Source of the DNA: Thysanoteuthis rhombus
Taxonomy: Eukaryota > Mollusca > Cephalopoda > Oegopsida > Thysanoteuthidae
Direction: 5' to 3'
DNA: 64,000 nucleotides
Assembly (NCBI GenBank): GCA_963457665.1
Contig: OY735206.1
Coordinates: forward strand, 20,234,651-20,298,650
The translations under genes and the position numbers were made by a program. Numbering within the stretch: position 1 is the stretch's first letter; every line of letters starts with the position of its first letter. This document shows, in pieces, positions 1,746 through 61,282 of the stretch. Below the pieces are notes generated by a model. The model made no database searches, was not told the origin of the DNA, and worked only from the letters and a program-made list of their open reading frames with translations.

Positions 1746-1926
1746 GTCCAGTTCCGTAGTAGAGGTACGATATCGGCCTACGGGTCTAAAGTGAAGGTTT
1801 CAATTCTGCCTCCCGGTACTATAGCCACACTGAAGAGATGTAATACATCGAAACATCTGTCTGTGGATGACACAAAAATATATATATACATATATTTTTA
1901 TACATATATATACATATATATATATG
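1746..1926 (+). mobile_element. tRNA-derived SINE with (TA)n tail
   Basis: A box-B-like motif, AGGTTTCAATTCTG, lies at 1795-1808, and a box-A-like stretch (GTAGTAGAGGTA) lies about 37 bp upstream, the spacing of an internal RNA polymerase III promoter in a tRNA head. The following body (GAAGAGATGTAATACATC) ends in an interrupted TA run to 1926. The head is too diverged to name the parent tRNA and lacks a paired acceptor stem, so it is a retroposon rather than a functional tRNA. Confidence 0.5.
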
Positions 1927-12947: not shown

Positions 12948-15365
12948 TTATATCTCTAGCACCTTCCTCAGTATCCGTGCAGTTCCCAGTAGTGCTGTGG
13001 TCTGTACGGTCTCTATCCTTCCCCTAATCCTGATCTCCTCCAGTCTCATCCTCTGCGTTTTGGGGACAGTTCCTAGTGCGCCCACTATGACCGGTACTAC
13101 ATCTTCCTTAACTCTCTTGCTAGGTCCTAGTATTTTTCCCTTTTTTCACCCTCCTCCTTTTTTACTCTATGGTCTGCAGGCACAGCAACTTCTACTATTT
13201 GGCAGGCCTTCCATTTTTTGTCTACTATTACTAAGTCCGGTCTTCTTGCCTGGATGAGGTGGTCAGTCTGGATGTCAAAGTCCCAGAGTAGTTTGTGGTT
13301 GTCATTCTCCAAAACTGCCTCTGGCTTGTGCTGATACCACTTTTCCACATTTGTTTGCTTAGTTCCCAGTGTATCATCGTTGCTACTCTATCGTGTCTAT
13401 GCTTATACTCCTTCTGGGCGAGTTGACTACATTCACTAGTTATGTGGTTTACTGTCTCATCTCTTTCGCCACACATGCGGCATTTGCTGTTTGTCCGTGT
13501 TCTGTCGATTTTTGTTTTTATGTAGTTTGTCCTTATGCTTTTGTTTTGGGCTGCCATGATGAGCGATTCTGTTTCTCTCTTAAGGTTCCCCTTTCGTAAC
13601 CACGTCCATGATTTCTCGTCTGCTACATCTTGTATCTGTCTTTTAAACTCGCTGTACAATTTTTTCCTTTCCCATCTTTCTTTTCTTGTTTGCTGTACTG
13701 TTCAATTGTTTTCTACTTTATTGCTTGTTGCACTATCTCTCGCGCTCTTTATGATTTCTTCACTATTTGTTTGCACATATCTTTCTAGGACTACTTTAGC
13801 TCTCTGGACACAATCTTCTATGCTGATGAGCCCCCTGCCATCTTCTTTTCTCTTAACGTATAGTCTATCTGTATCATCTCTAGGGTGTAATGCTTTATGC
13901 ATCGTCATAAGTTTCCTTGTTCGCCTATCCATTGATCGGAGCTCTTCCTTGTCCATCCTAGGAATGGTCCTGTATACCTAACTACTGACACAGCCCAGGT
14001 GTTCATTCCTTTTATTAGATTTCTGCTGTTTAATTTGGTTTCTAATATTTTCCTTATCCTTCTGAGGTATTCTATCTTTATTTTCTCCTTCATCTCTTCC
14101 CGTTTTATTGTGTCACATTCAAGGACACCTAGGTACTTGTATCGGTCTTGTGCAGTCAATGCCCTAATCTTGCAGTTGTCCGGGAGTTCAATTCCTTCAG
14201 TCATTGAAAGCCTTCCTTTGTGCATCACCATGATTGCGCATTTTTCTATCCCAAACTCCATTCCTATGTCCTCACTATATTCCCTTACTTCGTTGAACAG
14301 AGTCTCAAGCTCTCCCCTGTTTTTTGCGAACAATTTCATATCGTCCATGTACATTAGTTGGTTGACCTTTCCTTTTGTTTTAGAGAAATGGTATCCTTTG
14401 CTGTTTTTCAGGATTCTGTTGAGCGGTATCATTGTTAGAAAAAATAATAGTGGGGACAACGAGTCTCCTTGGAAGATTCCCCTTTTTATCCCTACCTCGG
14501 CTAGTTTGTCCCCTGCGGCTGTCAAATCTACTTTCCAGTCTTCCATCGAATTACCAATGAATTTAACCACCGGTTCGCTAATTTTGAACATTCTAAGGCA
14601 TTCGAGTATCCAGCTATGTGGAATCATATCGTATGCCTTTTTGTAATCTATCCATCCCATTGCGATATTCTTTCTCTTTTTCCTCACTTCTCCTAAGATC
14701 ATCTGGTCTATGTAGAGTAAATCGTTTGCCTCTTTGGTTCCTATCCTACACCCTTTCTGTTCTTCTGGTAGTAGTCCCCTTCTATCCATTGACATGTATA
14801 TTCTCTCAGGATTTTCCACATAAGTGGTAAGCACGTGATTGGTCTATAGTTGCTTGCTATGTTCCCCTTTTCTGGGTCTTTTTGGATGAGGGTGGTTCTG
14901 GCTTTAGTCATCCATTCTGGTGCCTTGCCTTCGTTTAGACAATTTTGGAGTAGGTGGGTGAGTCTGCCGTGTAACGTGGTGAATTTCTTGAACCAATACC
15001 CATGGATCCCGTCGGGACCCGGTGTTTTCCAGTTGGCTACTTTCCTAAGAGTATGTTTCAATGTGGTTTCATTCAGTAATATTGGTTCTCCCTTGTCTAT
15101 ATCTTCTAGTTCTTTTCTCATGTTTCCTAACCATTGCAGTGTTACGTTGTGTCTTTTTGGGTGCCCCCATATGCTAATCTCTTCTGGTGTAACTCTTCGA
15201 CTACAGTTGTGATGCCTTTTTGCGTTACCTTGTCTTGTTCCAAAGTCTTACTCGTGGTCTGTCCGTGTATGGCGTATTTCTGAGCAGTACTTCATCTCTC
15301 TGTAGTTGGGAGATCTGCCTTTGTAATCTTCTTTCCCATTTGGGTTTCTCTTCCCTATTATTGCT
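12948..15365 (-). pseudogene. LINE polyprotein pseudogene (RT + CCHC + PD-(D/E)XK)
   Basis: Decayed polyprotein for target-primed reverse transcription. Reading from 15365 leftward: a basic region (KWERRLQRQISQLQRDEV), then a fragment at 15121-14741 with NWKTPGPDG and NYRPITCLPL, the RT fingers. The largest intact piece (14834-13905, 309 codons) has block A WIDYKKAYD, block B RGIFQGDSLSPLL and the catalytic YMDD (MYMDDMKLFA). A piece at 13956-13702 has RKLMTMHKALHPR and GRGLISIEDC. The piece at 13659-13231 has a CCHC knuckle (CRMCGERDETVNHITSEC). The piece at 13348-13127 has the endonuclease RPDLVIVD...IVEVAVPAD. The C-terminus (IVGALGTVP, QTTALLGTARILRKVLE) stops at TAA, 12950-12948. At least five frameshifts, and an in-frame stop near 15230, separate the pieces, so it is inactive. 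The plus-strand frames of 148 and 215 codons at 13535 and 13999 are antisense shadows. Confidence 0.88.
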
Positions 15366-21649: not shown

Positions 21650-22000
21650 ATTCATTCTAGCTGAGAGATACTATTGTATGATAAGAATCGATGACTTTTG
21701 TGATTTTTTTCAAGTAATGGTAGATGAACTGAACGAAGGCACAAGAAAATTGGTCCCCACATTAACTCCAGTAAAATGATGTCATGTACAAAGAACAAGT
21801 TCAGGAAAAAGATGCAAAAATCATAATCGGAAAGGCAAACCTGAAAAAAATACATCATTATATCTACTTTGGACCACAAATCTCTATAGTATCCCCGGGG
21901 AAAGAAAGAATCAGGCGAAAAATCTCTACAGAATAGTAAGATTTTGGTAAAGAGCTCACACTACAAGAATCCTATTAGTCATGGAAAAGGAGGGTATACA
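21650..22000. other. No recognised gene
   Basis: Short frames only. Confidence 0.35.
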
Positions 22001-22002
22001 AC

Positions 22003-22418
22003 CCCTCGGTAGTCACTTATGGAGCTGAAACGTCGAATTTACTCAAAGTATTGACCCTCCGACTGAGAACCATGCAACATGCACAGGGTAGAATTATGCT
22101 CTGCATCACATGAAAAAATCATAAGACAGTACAGTATATTAGAGAGGAAAGAAGAGTCAGGGATATCATAGAATCCCCTGGAAACCTATTCGGCAATTTG
22201 GATGGTCATATAGAAAGAATGTCAGTTTCAGTTAACTGATGGACACCACGACTCACAATGTGGATCTCCAGAGATCAAATGCGGAACTGAAGCCGGCAAA
22301 ATATAAGATAAGTGTGACGAACTAAACAAGTTCAGAAAGTATTAGTTCCACAACGCCCATGATAGAGATATCTTGCTTATCCTGGGGAAAGGTCTATATC
22401 CAACGACAGACATGAAAG

Positions 22419-22420
<2 letters not shown>
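22003..22420 (+). mobile_element. RTE-type LINE 3' fragment
   Basis: Begins in the block for VTYGAET (GTCACTTATGGAGCTGAAACG), passes CTGAGAACCATGCAACATGC, GGGATATCATAGAATCCCCT, CACGACTCACAATGTGGATC and CCATGATAGAGATATC, and ends CCAACGACAGACATG-AAAGGCTG just before a CTG/ATG microsatellite, the normal 3' terminus of this RTE family. Confidence 0.8.
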
Positions 22421-22449
<29 letters not shown>

Positions 22450-23884: not shown

Positions 23885-24215
23885 CCGATGACCTCTGAAC
23901 TTATGTGAATCTTCATATCATCTTATTTTTGCTGGCCACAATCCGGCATATGATTTGGGGAGGCTAACGTTGTGATTCGTGATGCTCAACAATTGTCTTA
24001 CATTTTTGAAACATGGCCTGCCATTGCCTTCCGAACTTCCAAATACATTTTAAAAATCCGACTCCTATTTGCTCTGTAATATAATGTGCTGCTTTGTGAA
24101 CTCTCCATGTAAAACATGATTTACTACTTTATGCGTCTCATGTTTCTTAGTTCTAATGTTAAATACTTGGTTAGATTCCATGTTTCAGCTCCGTACATGA
24201 GTTAGTACGTACAAC
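23885..24215 (-). mobile_element. RTE-type LINE 3' fragment
   Basis: The plus strand reads the reverse complement of the family: TTTTTGCTGGCCACAATCC, GTGATTCGTGATGCTCAACA, TGTGCTGCTTTGTGAACTC, and TCCATGTTTCAGCTCCGTA for the TYGAETW block. Confidence 0.7.
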
Positions 24216-24221
24216 GCAAAA

Positions 24222-24466
24222 ACAAGACGTATTCAATCGACCCAATGGACTTTCGAAAAGTTTTCCGTCGAAGATGCTTTATCTCTGAAGATAAAGTTGG
24301 CAAAAGACGGAATATAAATATTCATAGCAGAATAGCAAAGCCCTTTGAATACTTAACGTCGAGAAACCAGAATTGAGGTAAAGAACTAAATCCGTAACCG
24401 AAGTAGAAGCAGCTGTAGCCACTGTCTGTGTAGTTAAAGATTGTGGGTTGTCGAATAGCGAAGCAA
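24222..24466 (-). repeat. 245-bp near-identical direct repeat, copy 1
   Basis: Shares almost every base with 26498-26746, including CTTTCGAAAAGTTTTCCGTC, ATGCTTTATCTCTGAAGATA, CATAGCAGAATAGCAAAGCC and AGTTAAAGATTGTGGGTTG. Orientation is set by the adjoining RTE fragment. An RTE 3' tail (ATCATCATC) is inserted at its right end. Confidence 0.85.
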
Positions 24467-24469
24467 GTC

Positions 24470-24985
24470 AATCAATCATCATCGGCTTTTTAGTGCCCAT
24501 CACTGGACAATGACCTTCTTCAAGATTCTATCATAGCCCCCGCAGAGTCAATACTTTTTGGACTTGTGTAGTTCGACACATCTTATTTTTCGCTGGCCAC
24601 GGTTTTGAATCTGACTTTTAAAGGTCCACATTGTGAATTGAGTCTTGATGTCCAGTGGTTGTCTGGTATTATTGCAAGATGACCTCCCACTGCAATTGAG
24701 TCTTTTGATAAATTCTATAACATCTCTCTTGTTTCTTCTCTGATATACTCTGCTGTTTTTTGATGTTTGGCATGATTTCCCATTTTTCAGATTGCATTAT
24801 TCTTGGTTTGGTAGCCAATCCTTTGGATAGATTCTATCTTCGAGCTCCATTGGTGACTATCGGGAGGATACATTGATTGTAGAGCCTTCTTTTTCGGACT
24901 GATGGGATTTTCTTGGTTTTGAAGGTTGGGCTCACTCCACAGAAATCTTGCGTACAGTGATTCATTGCTTGATTTCTTTTTTTGA
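24470..24985 (-). mobile_element. RTE-type LINE 3' fragment with GAT tail
   Basis: The 3' tail on the minus strand is GATGATGAT at 24472-24481. Reading right from there on the plus strand: AGTGCCCATCACTGGACAAT, CTTATTTTTCGCTGGCCACG, TCTTGATGTCCAGTGGTTGT, then CATTGGTGACTATCGGGAGG at the upstream end. It closely parallels the copy at 36917-37425. Confidence 0.8.
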
Positions 24986-26104: not shown

Positions 26105-26490
26105 AACCTTGTAAGGTCATTTGTTGGACACAGACCTTCCCAAAAATCTGCCAAATCTCTCACGTCCAAACTTCATGGTGTTGATACGTTTTTTAAATCA
26201 CATCATCTTTTCTTTTTTTTTTCAGCTCGGGGTAGGTGGTCCATATCGTCAAATGTGATGGCAAGTGCTTGCCCGACATTCTTACAATATTGCTTACCCA
26301 TTGCCATCTTAGCTGATTTATGTTTTTTTTCATTTATGACCCCTGTTTGTTTCCTAATACAGTGTGCGGTCTCGTGATCTCTGCATGCGAAATTAATCAT
26401 GATTTTCTTCTCTGCGCGTCGGTTCTTAGTTTGAGGATCGATTTCTCGGTTAAGTTCCATGTTTCAACTCAGTAGGTGACTAAGTATGAA
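26105..26490 (-). mobile_element. RTE-type LINE 3' fragment
   Basis: The plus strand carries TTTGTTGGACACAGACCTTC, GACATTCTTACAATATTGC, TACAGTGTGCGGTCTCGTG and TTCCATGTTTCAACTCAGTA. It is joined to the second copy of the 245-bp repeat exactly as at 23885-24466. Confidence 0.7.
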
Positions 26491-26497
26491 GAAAGCA

Positions 26498-26746
26498 GAC
26501 AAAACATATTTAATCGACACAATGGACTTTCGAAAAGTTTTCCGTCGGAGATGCTTTATCTCTGAAGATAAAGTTGGCAAAGGACGGAATATAAATATTC
26601 ATTGCAGAATAGCAAAGCCCTTTAAATAGTTTACGTCGAGAAACCAGAACTGAGGTGAAGAACAAATATCCGTAGCCGTAGTAGACGCAGCTGTAGACAC
26701 TGTCTGTGTAGTTAAAGATTGTGGGTTGTCGAATAGCGATGCGAAT
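26498..26746 (-). repeat. 245-bp near-identical direct repeat, copy 2
   Basis: See 24222-24466. On the minus strand it is open as part of a 100-codon frame (26812-26510) ending ENFSKVHCVD, but copy 1 does not keep that frame, which argues against a conserved protein. It contains a hairpin CTTTATC-TTCAGA-GATAAAG. Confidence 0.85.
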
Positions 26747-26888
26747 CAGTTTGCTGAAAACATTTAATTTGAATGCGATAGTAGGAATAGAGGTAACATA
26801 AATCAAATCCACGGAAAAGACTTTAATAGCGTCTTCAGATGATGGATCGCTTTTTCTCCCGAAGTTAAAACACTGTATAATTAAAGAT

Positions 26889-30031: not shown

Positions 30032-30125
30032 TGTAAGACCATTTTATTGCTGTTTTGAGCTTTTGAGCAAGAGTATAGCAGTCTTACAGAAGACAGAAGA
30101 GATAAAATACTTGGAAACGAGTTTA

Positions 30126-36912: not shown

Positions 36913-36916
36913 TGTC

Positions 36917-37425
36917 ATCATCATCAGTCTTTTATCGTCCATTGTTGGACAGTAACCTTCCCCAAGATTCGCCACACAGCTCTATCGTCGGCATCGCAGA
37001 GACAGTACTTTCTGAATTAGTTTGATTTTCTCTTCAACTTGTATCCTGACGACCTTGGTTGCGCAGATGATCTCTTGGGATTCATGTTGTGAGTCGTGAT
37101 GTCCATCGGTTGTCTACCATTCTTGCAACGTGGCCAGCCAATAGCCATTCGAGTTTTCTACTGAATGTCTCGGACTACTGATTTCTCCCTGATATATTGT
37201 GCTGTCTTATCTCTCCATGTAAGGCTGAACATGATACTTTCATATGCACGTTGTATGCTTCTCACTCGGCAGGTCTGTCTCTTGGTTAGGTTCCATTTTT
37301 CTGCTCCATAGGTGACTATCGGGAGGATGCATTGGTTGTATACTCTTCTTTTTTTTTGGATTAATGGAATCTTCTTGTTTTTGAAAGTTTAGCTTGCTCT
37401 GCCGAGGGCTTGCCATCCTAGATTC
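36917..37425 (-). mobile_element. RTE-type LINE 3' fragment with GAT tail
   Basis: The plus strand begins TCATCATCATCAGTC (tail), then CCATTGTTGGACAGTAACC, TTGTGAGTCGTGATGTCCAT, AACGTGGCCAGCCAATAGCC, TCTCCCTGATATATTGTGCT and GGTTCCATTTTTCTGC. Decayed but the longest copy. Confidence 0.8.
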
Positions 37426-41399: not shown

Positions 41400-42845
41400 G
41401 CTTATTGATTAGCATTACAGTTTACCTTCCCTTGTATAAGATCACAGATCCGTCCATTCATTTCTTGCTTGCAGCCAGGTCAGTCACATGATTTAGCTGG
41501 GTAAGGTAGGGAGCTTGGGTTATTTAGCTTACGGAAACTCTCTAAGTGATCCCCAGCACCTGATATTTCCAGTCGGTCAGCTGTCTAGGTACTGACCAGG
41601 GTTGATGTTGCTTAACTCCGGTTATTTTACTAGAACTGGCGTTTCCAACGTAATTTGTTCGTAACAAGATCACAGAAATTGGAGGCGCTGCGTAGAGAGC
41701 CTGAAAACTATAGCTGTAATGGTCTATGAGACCAGTCTGCTAAGGACTATTTCGCGATGGAGTACACTATCTGATATTTAGTAAACGTAGCTTATCTAAC
41801 ACAGAGGTCTCGCGTTTGTATTACAGGCATTGGTCATGAAAACTCATAAGGACACATTTCTCTGTGTATTCAGCTGTCAATCGAGTACACTTTAAGTTGC
41901 CTAATATGTTAGAGTTATCCTCCCGTGGAATTGCATTCTGGCAAGGGGGTGGTTAAAAGAACTTGACAGAAGGGATCACTAAGCAGACACACACGCAAGA
42001 AAATGTAGTCTTCGTCGACGGCTGGTCATACTCCATTGGGAGTTGTTTCCTAAGAAACAGACACTTTTTAAGTGTAGCTTTGTCCGTCAGAAAGACAGAA
42101 GTGTATGAGAACTCATTGAAGATCGTAATCGTTTTAATCTCTTCAACGATGCAGTGACAGGTCCTTATGGAGTAATAAACGTTCTTGTGGACGGTTAAAC
42201 ACTTGTGGTTTTGTCGCCAGGGAACGATCTGCGTTGTTTCAAGCATGTATCGATGAAGACAGGTACTCGAGAGAATGATAAGCGTTTTGCTGACCTGCGA
42301 ATCCCTTTCCCTGAACGGAACGATTGACTTCAAATGGTGTTCGTCACCGGGACCAAAATTCGTTTATTTTCAGGGCTTGATTAACCTCGGCATGCAACGT
42401 ATGTTATCGACATCCTGATCATTGGACCTTTCGTATAGAAGGCCGTTCACAGCTGTGGTCAAGAGAGGACAATGAGAGGCAAGGCAGCAGTCGTTAATTT
42501 CTCTCTACATTTCTTTGGTACCCCGGTCGACTTTTCTCGTCCTCCGTCCGTTTACTTCGCTGTGTACCTTGCATCTACCGTGTTGGTTTTTTTCACATTA
42601 TTCATAAGCAGCAGAACCCTGAGGTTGAGAAAAAGAGAAATAAACAAGGCACTAAATTGTTACAACGATATTTTCTTCCTTTTTCGTTTCAGCTTCTTTT
42701 TGCCTTTACTGTGGACGCCCAAAATACGGACCCTATCTCTTAGCTGCCGCATCTTTCACTTTTACAGCTCATTACGCCACGCAATGGCAATGCGTTAATC
42801 TTCCGGTTTTTTTTCTTTGCTTTTTCCGTATTTTTTTTCTAATCA
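41400..42845. other. No recognised gene; mixed-composition segment
   Basis: Visibly higher G+C than its neighbours. The minus frame at 42333-41953 (126 codons) and the plus frame at 42472-42798 (108 codons, with a hydrophobic segment VYFAVYLASTVLVFFTLFI) show no recognisable domain. The strip CTGTAATGGTCTATGAGACC at 41709-41728 resembles 52945-52965 and may be another SINE body. Confidence 0.25.
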
Positions 42846-55324: not shown

Positions 55325-55690
55325 AACCAATGTGACCTCTTGGTAGTCACAAACTTAGCTGGAAAACGGAGCCTAACCAAACTGAAAACCATGCTCACTA
55401 TAATATAAACATCCAAAGAAAACACAGTTTGTCTAAAAAAAATCGATTCCATTGGAAAAGGCTAATGGCAATTGGTTGGCTACGTTGCGAAATAGTCAAC
55501 AGCTAGACATCACAATTAACAACGTGAATCTCCAGAGATCATATGCAAAACAAGACCGGCAAAAAATGGTGTGATCGTCTAGACAAGTTAAGGAAATATT
55601 GGCTCCGCGATACCCATGATAGAGAGGTCTGGCGAATCTCAGAGAAAGTGTATATCCAACGACAGACGCAAAAAGGCTGATAATGACGAT
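55325..55690 (+). mobile_element. RTE-type LINE 3' fragment
   Basis: CTTGGTAGTCACAAACTTAG, then CAGCTAGACATCACAATTAA, AACGTGAATCTCCAGAGATC, GTCTAGACAAGTTAAGGAAA and CATGATAGAGAGGTCTGGCG; ends CAACGACAGACGCAAAAAGG with a GATGATGAT-like tail. Confidence 0.8.
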
Positions 55691-55694
55691 GATG

Positions 55695-56140
55695 ATGAAG
55701 AGAACAGAGTTCAGTTGTAACCTTAGTTGTAACGGCAAACTCTAATGACGTGTTTTAACGATATGTTTTAATATTCAGATGGGACCATCGCCGAAGATAA
55801 GTTTGCAGCAGCTGTTCATAAAGATGTCTGTGCATTTAAAAAGCAATATAAAATCAGAAAACCCTCCAAATAACCTGCAAGTAGGGTATTAGACTGTGAA
55901 GGGGTAATAAGATTAATACACTTCTCAAAAAAAAATGAAAATACTCTTGAATTCCCAAGGATGTCATTATAAGAACCAACTGCATGTATACGGGGATTTT
56001 TTTAGTTATTTTTCCTTGTTTTCATATGTGACAGGATCTGATAAATGTAAATATGTTAAGGGTCTGGCTTAGTCTCGGGTATCTTGTTTTCGGAATGGGA
56101 TTTTAAACCTATACAACCACTGCCAAACATTAGGCTTTGG
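55695..56140. other. No recognised gene
   Basis: Nothing supported. Confidence 0.35.
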
Positions 56141-58129: not shown

Positions 58130-58750
58130 TTCATTGAATTTGGCAGACGAGGAACATTTTTTTTTTTTTAGTAAAACTTTTTTGTTTTTGAATAAGTGAA
58201 CGCATATTTGGTCCAAGGGAGCGTAAGTATTGTCAATAAACAACATGCAACAACGCAGCTTGCTGCCAATATACTTTGGTCATTAGGCTGTTTCCATTTG
58301 TGTGACGAACCAAGCCTCTCTCTCCTTAACATCTACCGAATAGAAAAAACGAAACCATACTGCAGCACAGGCATTGCTCTAAATTTCTTTTAATCAACAT
58401 AAAATAACACCAATAAATCAAAAAGTAAAGTAGACAATTCGTCCCATGTCCATCATCCCAAAAATCTTTTACCTTTAAACATGCCAAAACACATTATAGA
58501 TTAAACATTAAGATTATTACTATCCACCAGAGCTACAGAAGATATCAACAGGGGCAATAAAACCCAATGCCAAGATTCCTAGGTCAAGATAGAAACTACT
58601 CCCAGACCACTACTAAGCATCCTTGCAGAGATGACACCTATATTGAGTTCACACCCCTTGACAAAATAAATATCCCCATACCACTCACTACCACACTCAA
58701 AATACTCTTACCAAATTCCCAATAAATAGACCAAAAAAAAAAACATAGAG
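58130..58750. other. No recognised gene; possible ORF end upstream of the ribozyme-like motif
   Basis: Between about 58590 and 58725 a plus frame reads DTYIEFTPLDKINIPIPL and ends at a TAA at 58722-58724, about 30 bp before the hammerhead-like motif. I cannot assign it. Confidence 0.25.
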
Positions 58751-58754
58751 AATC

Positions 58755-58810
58755 ATTCGCCTGATGAGGCCCGAAAAGGGCAGAAACATGAGCTAGTTTG
58801 TGTGGCGAAT
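58755..58810 (+). ncRNA. Hammerhead-ribozyme-like motif (type I, likely inactive)
   Basis: The three-way junction can be drawn completely. Stem I is ATTCGC (58755-58760) with GCGAAT (58805-58810). The invariant CTGATGA is at 58761-58767. Stem II is GCCC/GGGC (58769-58772 with 58778-58781) with loop GAAAA. The invariant GAA is at 58783-58785. Stem III is ACA/TGT (58786-58788 with 58801-58803). The residue at the cleavage position (58804) is G, where hammerheads need A, C or U, and the base pair closing stem II is a G-A mismatch, so self-cleavage is unlikely. Such short-stem-III type I hammerheads are known from Penelope-like elements and small retrozyme-type repeats. Confidence 0.72.
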
Positions 58811-58976
58811 CCACTTTCTACTATTTATTTCCAGCTCTACCTTGAGACAACTGAACTTCAAGAGTAAAAAGTTATATGTATCGAGCACTGTATGAAATAA
58901 ATCCATTACATTTCAGAAGTGGCTTTATATTATTGATATATTATTATATTATGTTATACTGCTAGCCTGATTTGTA

Positions 58977-58978
<2 letters not shown>

Positions 58979-59026
<48 letters not shown>
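58979..59026. repeat. (TA)n array
   Basis: About 24 TA units. Confidence 0.96.
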
Positions 59027-59028
<2 letters not shown>

Positions 59029-59029
59029 C

Positions 59030-60780
59030 CATAATTCGTTTAGTAAAATCGTATGCTTTCTTTTGCCAATGGTCTTATTGTCTATTGGTAGGAATTAGAA
59101 AAGGCAACTCAATTTGTTTCTGTTATGGTTGGGAGATTTCGGTTTATTCGAAGCTTTGAGGCAAATAGAAGAGACAGAGAGATTGAACAAGGGATGATAA
59201 TTCTGTCTTTTATAATTGTCCAACTCAAACATAGAACTAATCCTGTATTTAATATTTTCTGACTGTTTCCGACCGTATGGAAAATCAGTGTAGAAAAGAG
59301 GTTATTGGAATTAATGGAACCTACATGAATGAAAAAATTCCAATTGAACATGATTTTTTTAAGATCTTTTCTGACCTACGAATATTGCTCAAAGAATCAT
59401 CCCACTAATTACAAACCACACCAGCAACAGCGGCAGCCATTTCAGGCCTACTGCCGAACAGAGTTTTTTTTTTAACTTTTCCAATGAGGATTTTATGGCC
59501 ATGTTGTTTTTTTTGGGGGGGGGGTAGGAGAAGGTAGTTACTAATCGAGCTTTTCTCTAGCCACTTTTTCCTAGTTCCTTGCCGACGGTAGTCGAACATG
59601 GGTCAGTCGGTCATAAGACGCGGGCAAAAGTCTGTTCGTAAGGTACAGGATTCGTTAGTCAAACGTACAATCATGTATTCAATCACACACATACGCACAT
59701 ACATGTATTCAAAATCAGGAGTTGTATTAAGAGAGGTTAGTTAGCAAACGGGGAAAACGGCAAGAAACTCACTCGTTTTCTGACAAGATCAGGAATAACA
59801 CTCGTTCTGGAATGTAATTGGAGAGGAAAAAAAGACCATATATCCCAGACATATATCATTGAGCTTAGATCATAAAAGGTGAATCAGTAAATGACTTAGT
59901 AGAAAGAATACAATCTTACAGTATCGCCCATAAACGAGTACACACTAATTTTTTAGGAAAGTAATTTACTTCTAAACCAAACATAATAGGATTTCATTAT
60001 TTCTAGTGGAACATTATAGAATAAAAACGGATATTATCAGATATTATCTATAACCAAACTCTACTGCATTGAAGATCGATTACAAGAACAATGTGTATAT
60101 TTACTGCCCCCCCCCCAAGGGTACATTCCTTCTAAAAACATTCATTTCATCATTTATAGTAAGTATATTTTGAAGACGAAAAAAGAACATTGATGTTTTT
60201 TCTTATAGGGGATTCATGTATAAATAAAGTAGTGAATGTTGCAACCCCATTGCGACTTCATTATAATCTCATAGTTCTCAGTGTACAGACATTTAGTTTT
60301 GAGATTGCTACACGTGGGAGGGAACTCTCTTCTGATTTGAAAGAACGTGTCATTTATTTCGATTAACAGAGCAACGACTGAAGTTGTGCAAGAACCCTGT
60401 TGCCTAAGCTGCGCAAAATCACAATAAATGTGGATATGTCAGAGATGTGCAGATGCGACCAGGTCGACTATGCCAGCTGACACCAAGGTCTATTTATTTT
60501 ATCGGGAGATTATCCGACGAAGAGTCGGCTGCGGTTGTTGCTAATGTGATTAAAGGAAGGTGAGACCTGAATGTTTCTGCTACAAAAGTCAAAAGTCCGG
60601 CTTATATGGCTTAGAATCAGGGAGTGTAAAAGGATTTGATACGTAGCAAAAACGTATATTCCAACATATTTTGATTTAATCTTCGAAATTGACTCGAAGA
60701 TTTGTGATTTTTGTACATAATCTTTCGATGCTTAATCCTGTTTCGATATTTTGAGTCAAGCATCGTTTACAAAAGAGAAT
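59030..60780. other. No recognised gene
   Basis: A ten-G run at 59515-59524 and a ten-C run near 60105-60115 are the only compositional features. Confidence 0.4.
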
Positions 60781-60784
60781 CACA

Positions 60785-61105
60785 CTCTGCATAACACAGA
60801 GACGATCATAAGACAGCAAAGTTTATTAGGGGGAAACAGGAGTCCGGCGTATCAAAGAATCCATTAGAAAACTCTAATCGCGATGGGCTGGACATATTGC
60901 AAGAATGTCAAACAACGGTTGGACATTATGGCTCACAATGAGGATCCCACAGGTCATGAAACACTGTGACCTGTAAAAAATATGATGGCATTACGATCTA
61001 GACAAGCTCAGAAAATATTGGCTCCACAACACCCTCGATAGAGAGATCCAGCGAATTCTGAGGAAGGTTTATGTCCAACAATGGATGCAAAAAGGTCGAT
61101 AAAAG
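60785..61105 (+). mobile_element. RTE-type LINE 3' fragment
   Basis: CTCTGCATAACACAGAGACG, then GATGGGCTGGACATATTGC (the WAGHIA block), ATTATGGCTCACAATGAGG, TTACGATCTAGACAAGCTCA, CTCGATAGAGAGATCC and ATGTCCAACAATGGATGC. A stretch with CAGGTCATGAAACACTGTGA-CCTG is altered from the usual SRDH block. Confidence 0.8.
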
Positions 61106-61282
61106 TGATGATATAGAGAATAGGATCAGATAAACTTAAGTTGTAACAGCATCAGTTCTAACTGGAAAATTTAATGACAATGACACCCATGTTCTAACGG
61201 CACTTTGTTTTTTTTAATCAGGAAAGACTATTGTCAGAGTAGGTTTTTAGCAATTGCACATGTAGATTTTAGAGAGTACTTG

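Follow-up and report, generated by a model that had tools for sequence, protein, structure and literature searches.

Introduction

Hammerhead ribozymes in Penelope-like elements (PLEs) were described by Cervera & de la Pena (2014) and Lunse et al. (2017), whose results are taken here from the retrieved parts of PMC7761336, PMC6155905, PMC11167929 and PMC10085705. In these parts PLE hammerheads are characterised as minimal and are presumed to depend on dimer formation or on assistance by a protein (PMC7761336, PMC11167929), and cleavage as dimers has been reported for the small ones in work cited in PMC7761336. For one PLE hammerhead the retrieved text of PMC11167929 reports cleavage only in the presence of its protein, and insertion in vitro that catalytic mutations left unaffected, so that insertion may not require cleavage. 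What hammerheads do in PLEs is described as unknown in the part of PMC7761336 that was available. As to the elements themselves, inverted pLTRs, an optional 'tail', 5′ truncation and AT-rich targets are reported in the retrieved parts of PMC3846280 and PMC11167929.

Literature searches found nothing on hammerhead ribozymes with retrotransposons in cephalopods, and for a hammerhead ribozyme in octopus nothing beyond one paper that mentions each once. Penelope-like elements figure in the 2026 repeat annotation of Octopus vulgaris, and the words 'hammerhead' and 'ribozyme' do not occur in the available part of that article (PMC13282606). The locus compared with these systems here lies in a 64,000-nucleotide stretch of contig OY735206.1 of the cephalopod Thysanoteuthis rhombus, referred to as the window. 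The motif at 58755-58810 is very likely a decayed type I hammerhead-like motif in the 3′ terminal repeat of an abundant PLE family, called family 1. Hammerheads in PLEs being already known, the odd family-wide feature here is a G-A at the base of stem II.

Results

Sequence and fold of the motif

The stretch 58755..58810 (+) is a 56-nt hammerhead-like three-way junction, and its layout was confirmed both by direct reading and by folding with RNAfold. The core segments and three stems in the right order, with a perfect 6-bp stem I and a 4-bp stem II, were thus correctly drawn in the initial annotation. The 5′ strand of stem I, ATTCGC (58755..58760), pairs with GCGAAT (58805-58810) in 6/6 positions and is followed by the core segment CTGATGA (C3-A9, 58761..58767). 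Stem-loop II (58768..58782) has a G10.1/A11.1 mismatch at its base (G58768 opposite A58782) and four GCCC/GGGC pairs (58769-58772 with 58778-58781). The core segment GAA (G12-A14, 58783..58785) and stem-loop III (58786..58803, starting with the A15.1-U16.1 pair, as placed by fold and alignment) lead to site 17 at 58804, which is G in the window copy and A in most family-1 copies.

The RNAfold minimum free energy structure of 58745-58830 is the same three-way junction (z -2.0), although 8 of 200 shuffles of this region fold equally well. It has 6 pairs in stem III, and in the family stem III has 6-7 pairs including G-U, so the minimal stem III that had been proposed was refuted. With CUGANGA and GAA ordered among three helices and the ends within stem I the motif has the layout of a type I hammerhead, from which the window copy departs in lacking a cleavable base at site 17 (G58804) and a Watson-Crick 10.1-11.1 pair (G-A). 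Hammerheads with a guanine at site 17 are not known to cleave.

Chance expectation and covariance models

The motif was compared with expectation in simulated sequence. A crude sum-of-stems score was equalled in 113 of 9,252 Markov-2 simulated windows, and by this score alone chance would stay possible for 58755-58810. Two sets of 937.5 simulated windows each yielded 8 and 5 instances of the exact core with stems of at least 6, 4 and 3 pairs. A log-odds score rewarding hammerhead-specific bases was reached by 1 match in 8,620 simulated windows, and on this null together with 1,916 exact 31-base copies in the genome a chance origin was rejected.

For a covariance model, R1, a set of 19 clear hammerheads of viral contigs (IMG/VR) served as training data. 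Hammerheads were collected from these by pattern, the contigs held further ones, and 19 were aligned. Left out were the duplicates L004, L017, L018 and L019, as well as L002:11704, L008:4244 (long stem III) and L014:415 (no GAAAC), and also L007, which was badly placed. In the alignment 99.6% of cells are paired, the covariation score is 0.836 against a shuffled mean of 0.184, the 10.1-11.1 pair is G-C in 19/19 and every one of the 19 has C or A at site 17. The contigs L001, L002/L004, L008, L009 and L014/L017/L018 carry several hammerheads each, which share one strand and are spaced by about 0.3-1 kb. On L008 and L009 they lie between predicted ORFs or touch ORF ends, and L001 has seven R1 matches.

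With filters off, R1 over the whole window scored 58755-58809 at 21.6 bits (E 2.8e-4), a value to be read with some bias of R1 towards both motifs of the window in mind, since 10/19 rows matched patterns derived from them and nine are same-contig neighbours of such rows; the training contigs were moreover partly retrieved with the stem II of the 58755 motif itself, which favours that motif. The next match in the window after both motifs had 11.6 bits. With default filters the 58755 motif drops to 11.3 bits (E 0.49), and Rfam gave no hammerhead match at gathering score over the whole window, its Hammerhead_HH9 model reaching 13.5 bits over 58400-59100 against a cut-off of 52 (E 4.1). The covariance check proposed with the initial annotation therefore came out in favour of a hammerhead with unfiltered R1 and against it with Rfam and filtered R1.

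The silence of Rfam is weak evidence, because at gathering score it found 0/18 of the R1 matches of at least 31 bits on L001, L002, L003, L007, L008 and L009, of which 12 had trained R1. Likewise no hammerheads were found by Rfam at gathering score on L001, L002, L004, L008 and L009. Rfam cut-offs miss such motifs, and annotations relying on Rfam would under-count them.

Copies of family 1 in the genome

A DNA search of the genome with the motif region gave 835 first-look candidates, the best 40 of which were scored with 51 matches; 30 loci, the window's own included, were retrieved and 42 motif copies were aligned. An exact 31-base pattern, running from GAAAC to behind stem I with site 17 left free, occurs 973 + 943 = 1,916 times in the 2.73-Gb genome, and the reversed-pattern control 0 + 0 times. 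No convincing paralogue of the 58755 motif was found inside the 64-kb window.

In the 42 aligned copies, which include the window copy and lean towards it because genome searches score the best candidates only, site 17 is A in 31, G in 9 and T in 2. Free of this lean at site 17 are the nine loci obtained by protein search (L056-L064), whose 12 copies all have A, and the first 100 listed of the 1,916 exact places (contigs C1 to C3), counted by eye as A 88, T 8, G 3 and C 1. A cleavable base (A, C or U) hence stands in 33/42, 12/12 and 97/100 copies, respectively, as had been anticipated for most paralogues, and the window copy has on this ground lost its cleavable base. The idea of a decayed copy holds in this respect, A being the norm at 58804. 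G17 recurs in the aligned set, in three cases together with T at 11.1, and could in principle mark a functional subfamily with altered chemistry; its occurrence in 0/12 protein-found and 3/100 listed exact copies makes such a subfamily very unlikely.

The base of stem II tells otherwise for the idea of decay. At base 11.1, the 42 aligned copies divide into 33 with A, 7 with T and 2 with C, and the 12 protein-found ones into 9 with A and 3 with T. The 10.1/11.1 position is G-A in 32/42 copies, the window copy included, and a standard pair in 9/42 (G-U 6, G-C 2, A-U 1). The Watson-Crick pair expected to close stem II in most paralogues is thus not there, and the G-A is family 1's own state rather than decay. 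This same observation speaks against the main reading, as family 1 has mostly G-A at the base of stem II whereas the references have G-C in 19/19. Intact core, cleavable site 17 and a standard 10.1-11.1 pair occur together in 5/52 copies with readable core, two of 54 copies with core gaps having been left out. Four of these five have G-U and one A-U (L029), and L046 among them has lost most of stem I. Both copies with C11.1 fail elsewhere, L023 by T at C3 and L034 by G17.

Conservation of the remaining core is high in the family-1 alignment: C3 is kept in 39/41 copies with a letter there, G8 in 39/42, A9 in 41/42, G12 in 40/42, and A13, A14 and U16.1 each in 42/42. Stem I is paired, from the outer to the inner position, in 34/34, 37/37, 38/39, 31/39, 36/40 and 39/41 copies, and stem III over 7 positions in 38-42 of 41-42 copies per position. 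The stem pairs are mostly kept over the 42 close copies and changes are almost all one-sided; covariation within family 1 consequently speaks neither for nor against the fold, the copies being too close. Over 16 loci (10 protein-found and 6 of the 30 DNA-found) R1 scored family-1 copies at 17.0-34.0 bits, with the exceptions of L043 (12.0 bits) and L058 (10.8 bits, off-register).

These tallies bear on an alternative in which the repeat family is real and the junction is coincidental, or a DNA palindrome that serves snap-back priming, and at no time acted as a ribozyme. The G-A in 32/42 copies, the absence of clear compensatory change within family 1 and the silence of Rfam would all fit it, and so would the inverted arms described below, which meet at the hairpin region and which a priming role could explain. 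Such a look-alike would however hardly keep the invariant core bases other than 11.1 in 39-42 of 41-42 copies or an A, C or U at site 17 in 33 of 42, and both the log-odds null and the E value of R1 run counter to it, as does the fact that hammerheads are a published feature of PLEs in the retrieved parts of PMC6155905 and PMC7761336. A look-alike is accordingly considered unlikely, and the reading as a decayed hammerhead-like motif is preferred.

Anatomy of the repeat carrying family 1

Collinear alignment with genomic copies delimits a 5′-truncated family-1 repeat copy at 58328..58979 (+), the left edge of which is approximate and read off the alignment. In a profile of 20-nt bins the stretch shared by the window copy extends from -440 to +280 nt around the motif, its right part being (TA)n. 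On the 3′ side, the homology between copies extends beyond the motif up to the end ...GATTTGTACCA, which in the window lies about 170 nt behind the motif end and is adjoined by a (TA)n microsatellite (58980..59027, +). Most of ten aligned copies run into a simple repeat, mostly (TA)n, at this boundary, L023 being an exception.

The 5′ limit of the shared sequence is ragged, from about 0 to -600 nt over 30 loci and at about -1.2 kb for L050 with L051. A second motif copy is present at 12/30 DNA-found loci, always inverted head-to-head, and at 8 of those 12 both copies lie within about 10 nt of each other. The arm has its far end about 14-18 nt behind stem I, where it adjoins a simple repeat, mostly (TA)n. 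Three inverted pairs, 82-83 nt apart, are seen among the 100 listed exact places. There are two 3′ ends, as five of ten protein-found loci align to 15-19 nt behind the motif and four continue, the longer form ending about 170 nt behind it. Inverted 5′ partial terminal repeat, 5′ truncation and optional 3′ extension are PLE hallmarks and are present in the family, not all of them in each copy. The proposal of a retroelement-borne hammerhead-like fold thus gains support from a dispersed repeat with Penelope-like anatomy.

Type I hammerheads of coral and mussel sit in retrozymes according to the retrieved part of PMC7229834, and a metazoan retrozyme (non-autonomous, non-LTR, with tandem units of 150-450 bp) was therefore weighed as carrier instead of a PLE. 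No direct tandem motif monomers were found at the 30 loci, where second copies are inverted and the shared sequence is dispersed with a ragged 5′ end. With copies that are linked to an ORF, 5′-truncated and dispersed, and that have inverted arms at the retrieved loci, a retrozyme is very unlikely, and a PLE is preferred as carrier.

Open reading frame linked to family 1

Broken ORF pieces are found upstream of about -330 nt in longer family-1 copies. A protein search with the ORF piece of L050 gave 5,638 candidates, the best 150 of which were scored, and all ten protein-found loci that were retrieved carry the motif, L055 being the query's own locus. In eight of the nine others the motif follows the ORF match on the coding strand, and the ninth, L057, carries it solely in opposite orientation to the 5′ side. 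At L059, L060 and L062 a 5′ inverted copy is present in addition to the coding-strand one. Recognisable ORF pieces end about 0.33-0.37 kb upstream of the motif in 8/10 protein-found loci, where the end is visible. The suggestion that the window motif lies on the 3′ side of a retroelement agrees with its probable place in a 3′ terminal repeat; the frame that stops about 30 bp upstream of it is, given this distance, not the ORF of the element.

The ORF pieces presumably correspond to the C-terminal part of a PLE protein, which they resemble in a linker and a GIY-YIG-type end, and one piece of L060 is likewise taken to resemble the N-terminal side of a PLE reverse transcriptase. Pfam RVT_1 or GIY-YIG gave no match in the family-1 ORF in any frame or piece tried, the L058 ORF has no relatives in the PDB, and tblastn found no relatives of the ORF piece in the viral contigs. 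In six frames of 54-62 kb around the window copy there was no Pfam match above cut-off, and a sub-threshold CUB match (E 0.0033) was judged to be chance. No proteins sharing words with the frames over either window motif were found. As Pfam and the PDB gave no match, the assignment to PLEs is based on anatomy and on protein motifs read by eye, and with these the carrier of family 1 is likely to be a PLE.

A more distant relative, 69% identical to the region of the 58755 motif, was noted at L052:7482-7595 (+); about 1.5 kb upstream of it lies a stretch with 42% identity to the L060 ORF piece. This relative perhaps represents a related, older element family with a diverged motif.

A second hammerhead in the window

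A stronger hammerhead at 1824..1866 (+), missed by the initial annotation, was found by descriptor scan and R1 and has the layout GCCACA/CTGAAGA/GATGTAATACATC/GAA/ACATCTGT/C/TGTGG. This family-2 hammerhead has every core base, G-C at 10.1-11.1 and C at site 17, and scored 43.9 bits (E 2.6e-11) with R1 over the whole window with filters off. The sole hammerhead-type match listed by Rfam for 1824-1866 was RAGATH-1 (RF03152), at 15.1 bits (E 5.2) against a gathering score of 56.3. RNAfold of 1815-1880 alone prefers another structure (z -1.1), because the loop of helix III has just two bases.

The genome gave 1,173 first-look candidates for family 2, of which the best 40 were scored. At 20 loci 25 copies were aligned and 20 dissected, the other five being left out for a lost core base or for being cut short. 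C17 is present in 19/20 dissected copies, the remaining one being shifted by an insertion, and helix III is the palindrome ACAGCTGT in 15/20, which would suit dimeric cleavage. On 13 of the 20 family-2 loci together with L052, 11/20 R1 matches scored 43.6-46.4 bits. L068 alone of the 20 loci matches the family-1 ORF (45% identical), and no Pfam match above cut-off was found in 1-5 kb around the 1824 motif.

The window stretch 1818-1869 has flanks CTATAG...GGAT and stems in common with the hammerheads of the phage-like contigs L008 and L009. In L014 the two strands of stem I vary together, with ATAG mostly constant. These flanks may reflect a tertiary contact, and so convergence, rather than common descent.

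Other features of the window

A third hammerhead considered at 30093 was rejected, showing weak similarity only. A broken reverse transcriptase lies at 13231-15247 (-), with RVT_1 at E 2.4e-22, zf-RVT just below cut-off and 2,409 homologues at E <= 1e-10 in the protein collection; it was discarded as partner of the 58755 motif, to which it has no visible link. Dispersed repeats of 67-82% identity are located at 24060-24470 and 26338-26748, and further ones in the same range at 21985-22431, 36916-37352, 55445-55737 and 60776-61151. A 5S-rRNA-like stretch at 41548-41666 (-), with 32 bits against a gathering score of 38, is possibly a 5S-derived SINE.

Discussion

The window copy, a 5′-truncated fossil bearing G17, is most likely inert. 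In a living element, a motif with A17 would be expected to cleave the RNA transcribed from that element at the junction of site 17 and stem I, and the cut would presumably trim units out of tandem or read-through transcripts. Family 1 might even be an active natural variant in which the G-A is offset by the long stem III or, as reported for one PLE, by the protein of the element, a possibility that is regarded as tentative.

This genome holds two hammerhead families of many copies: a canonical one, in which helix III is mostly palindromic, and another that has the family-wide stem II mismatch. Comparison of such natural copies makes it testable whether cleavage is needed for spread, and whether it is dimeric or protein-assisted.

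Among known systems, RAGATH-1 (RF03152) is related to family 2 by a score far below gathering, so that family 2 is not a member by Rfam criteria, and the feature suiting dimers in this comparison is the short, mostly palindromic helix III. The IMG/VR contigs L001-L004, L008, L009 and L014-L019 contain recurrences of the family-1 stem II (GGCCC/GGGC) as well as of stems I and II and the flanks of family 2. The 19 aligned hammerheads from IMG/VR differ from family 1 in that stem III is full, the 10.1/11.1 pair is G-C and site 17 holds C or A. The metazoan retrozymes, as far as the retrieved part of PMC7229834 describes them, resemble family 1 in having type I hammerheads in abundant non-coding repeats, whereas family 1 is linked to an ORF and is without direct tandem monomers at the retrieved loci.

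From the PLE hammerheads, as the retrieved parts of the literature present them, family 1 differs in a stem III of 6-7 pairs with G-U rather than an absent one, in the G-A at 10.1/11.1 of most copies and in a protein identity without support from profile searches. The published PLE 'tail' is 30-40 bp in the same sources, and the longer 3′ form of family 1 exceeds this. Family 1 shares with the PLE hammerheads so described a type I core, a position in the terminal region of a dispersed element and inverted repeats, and with the PLEs themselves the optional 3′ extension, the 5′ truncation and the AT-rich flanks.
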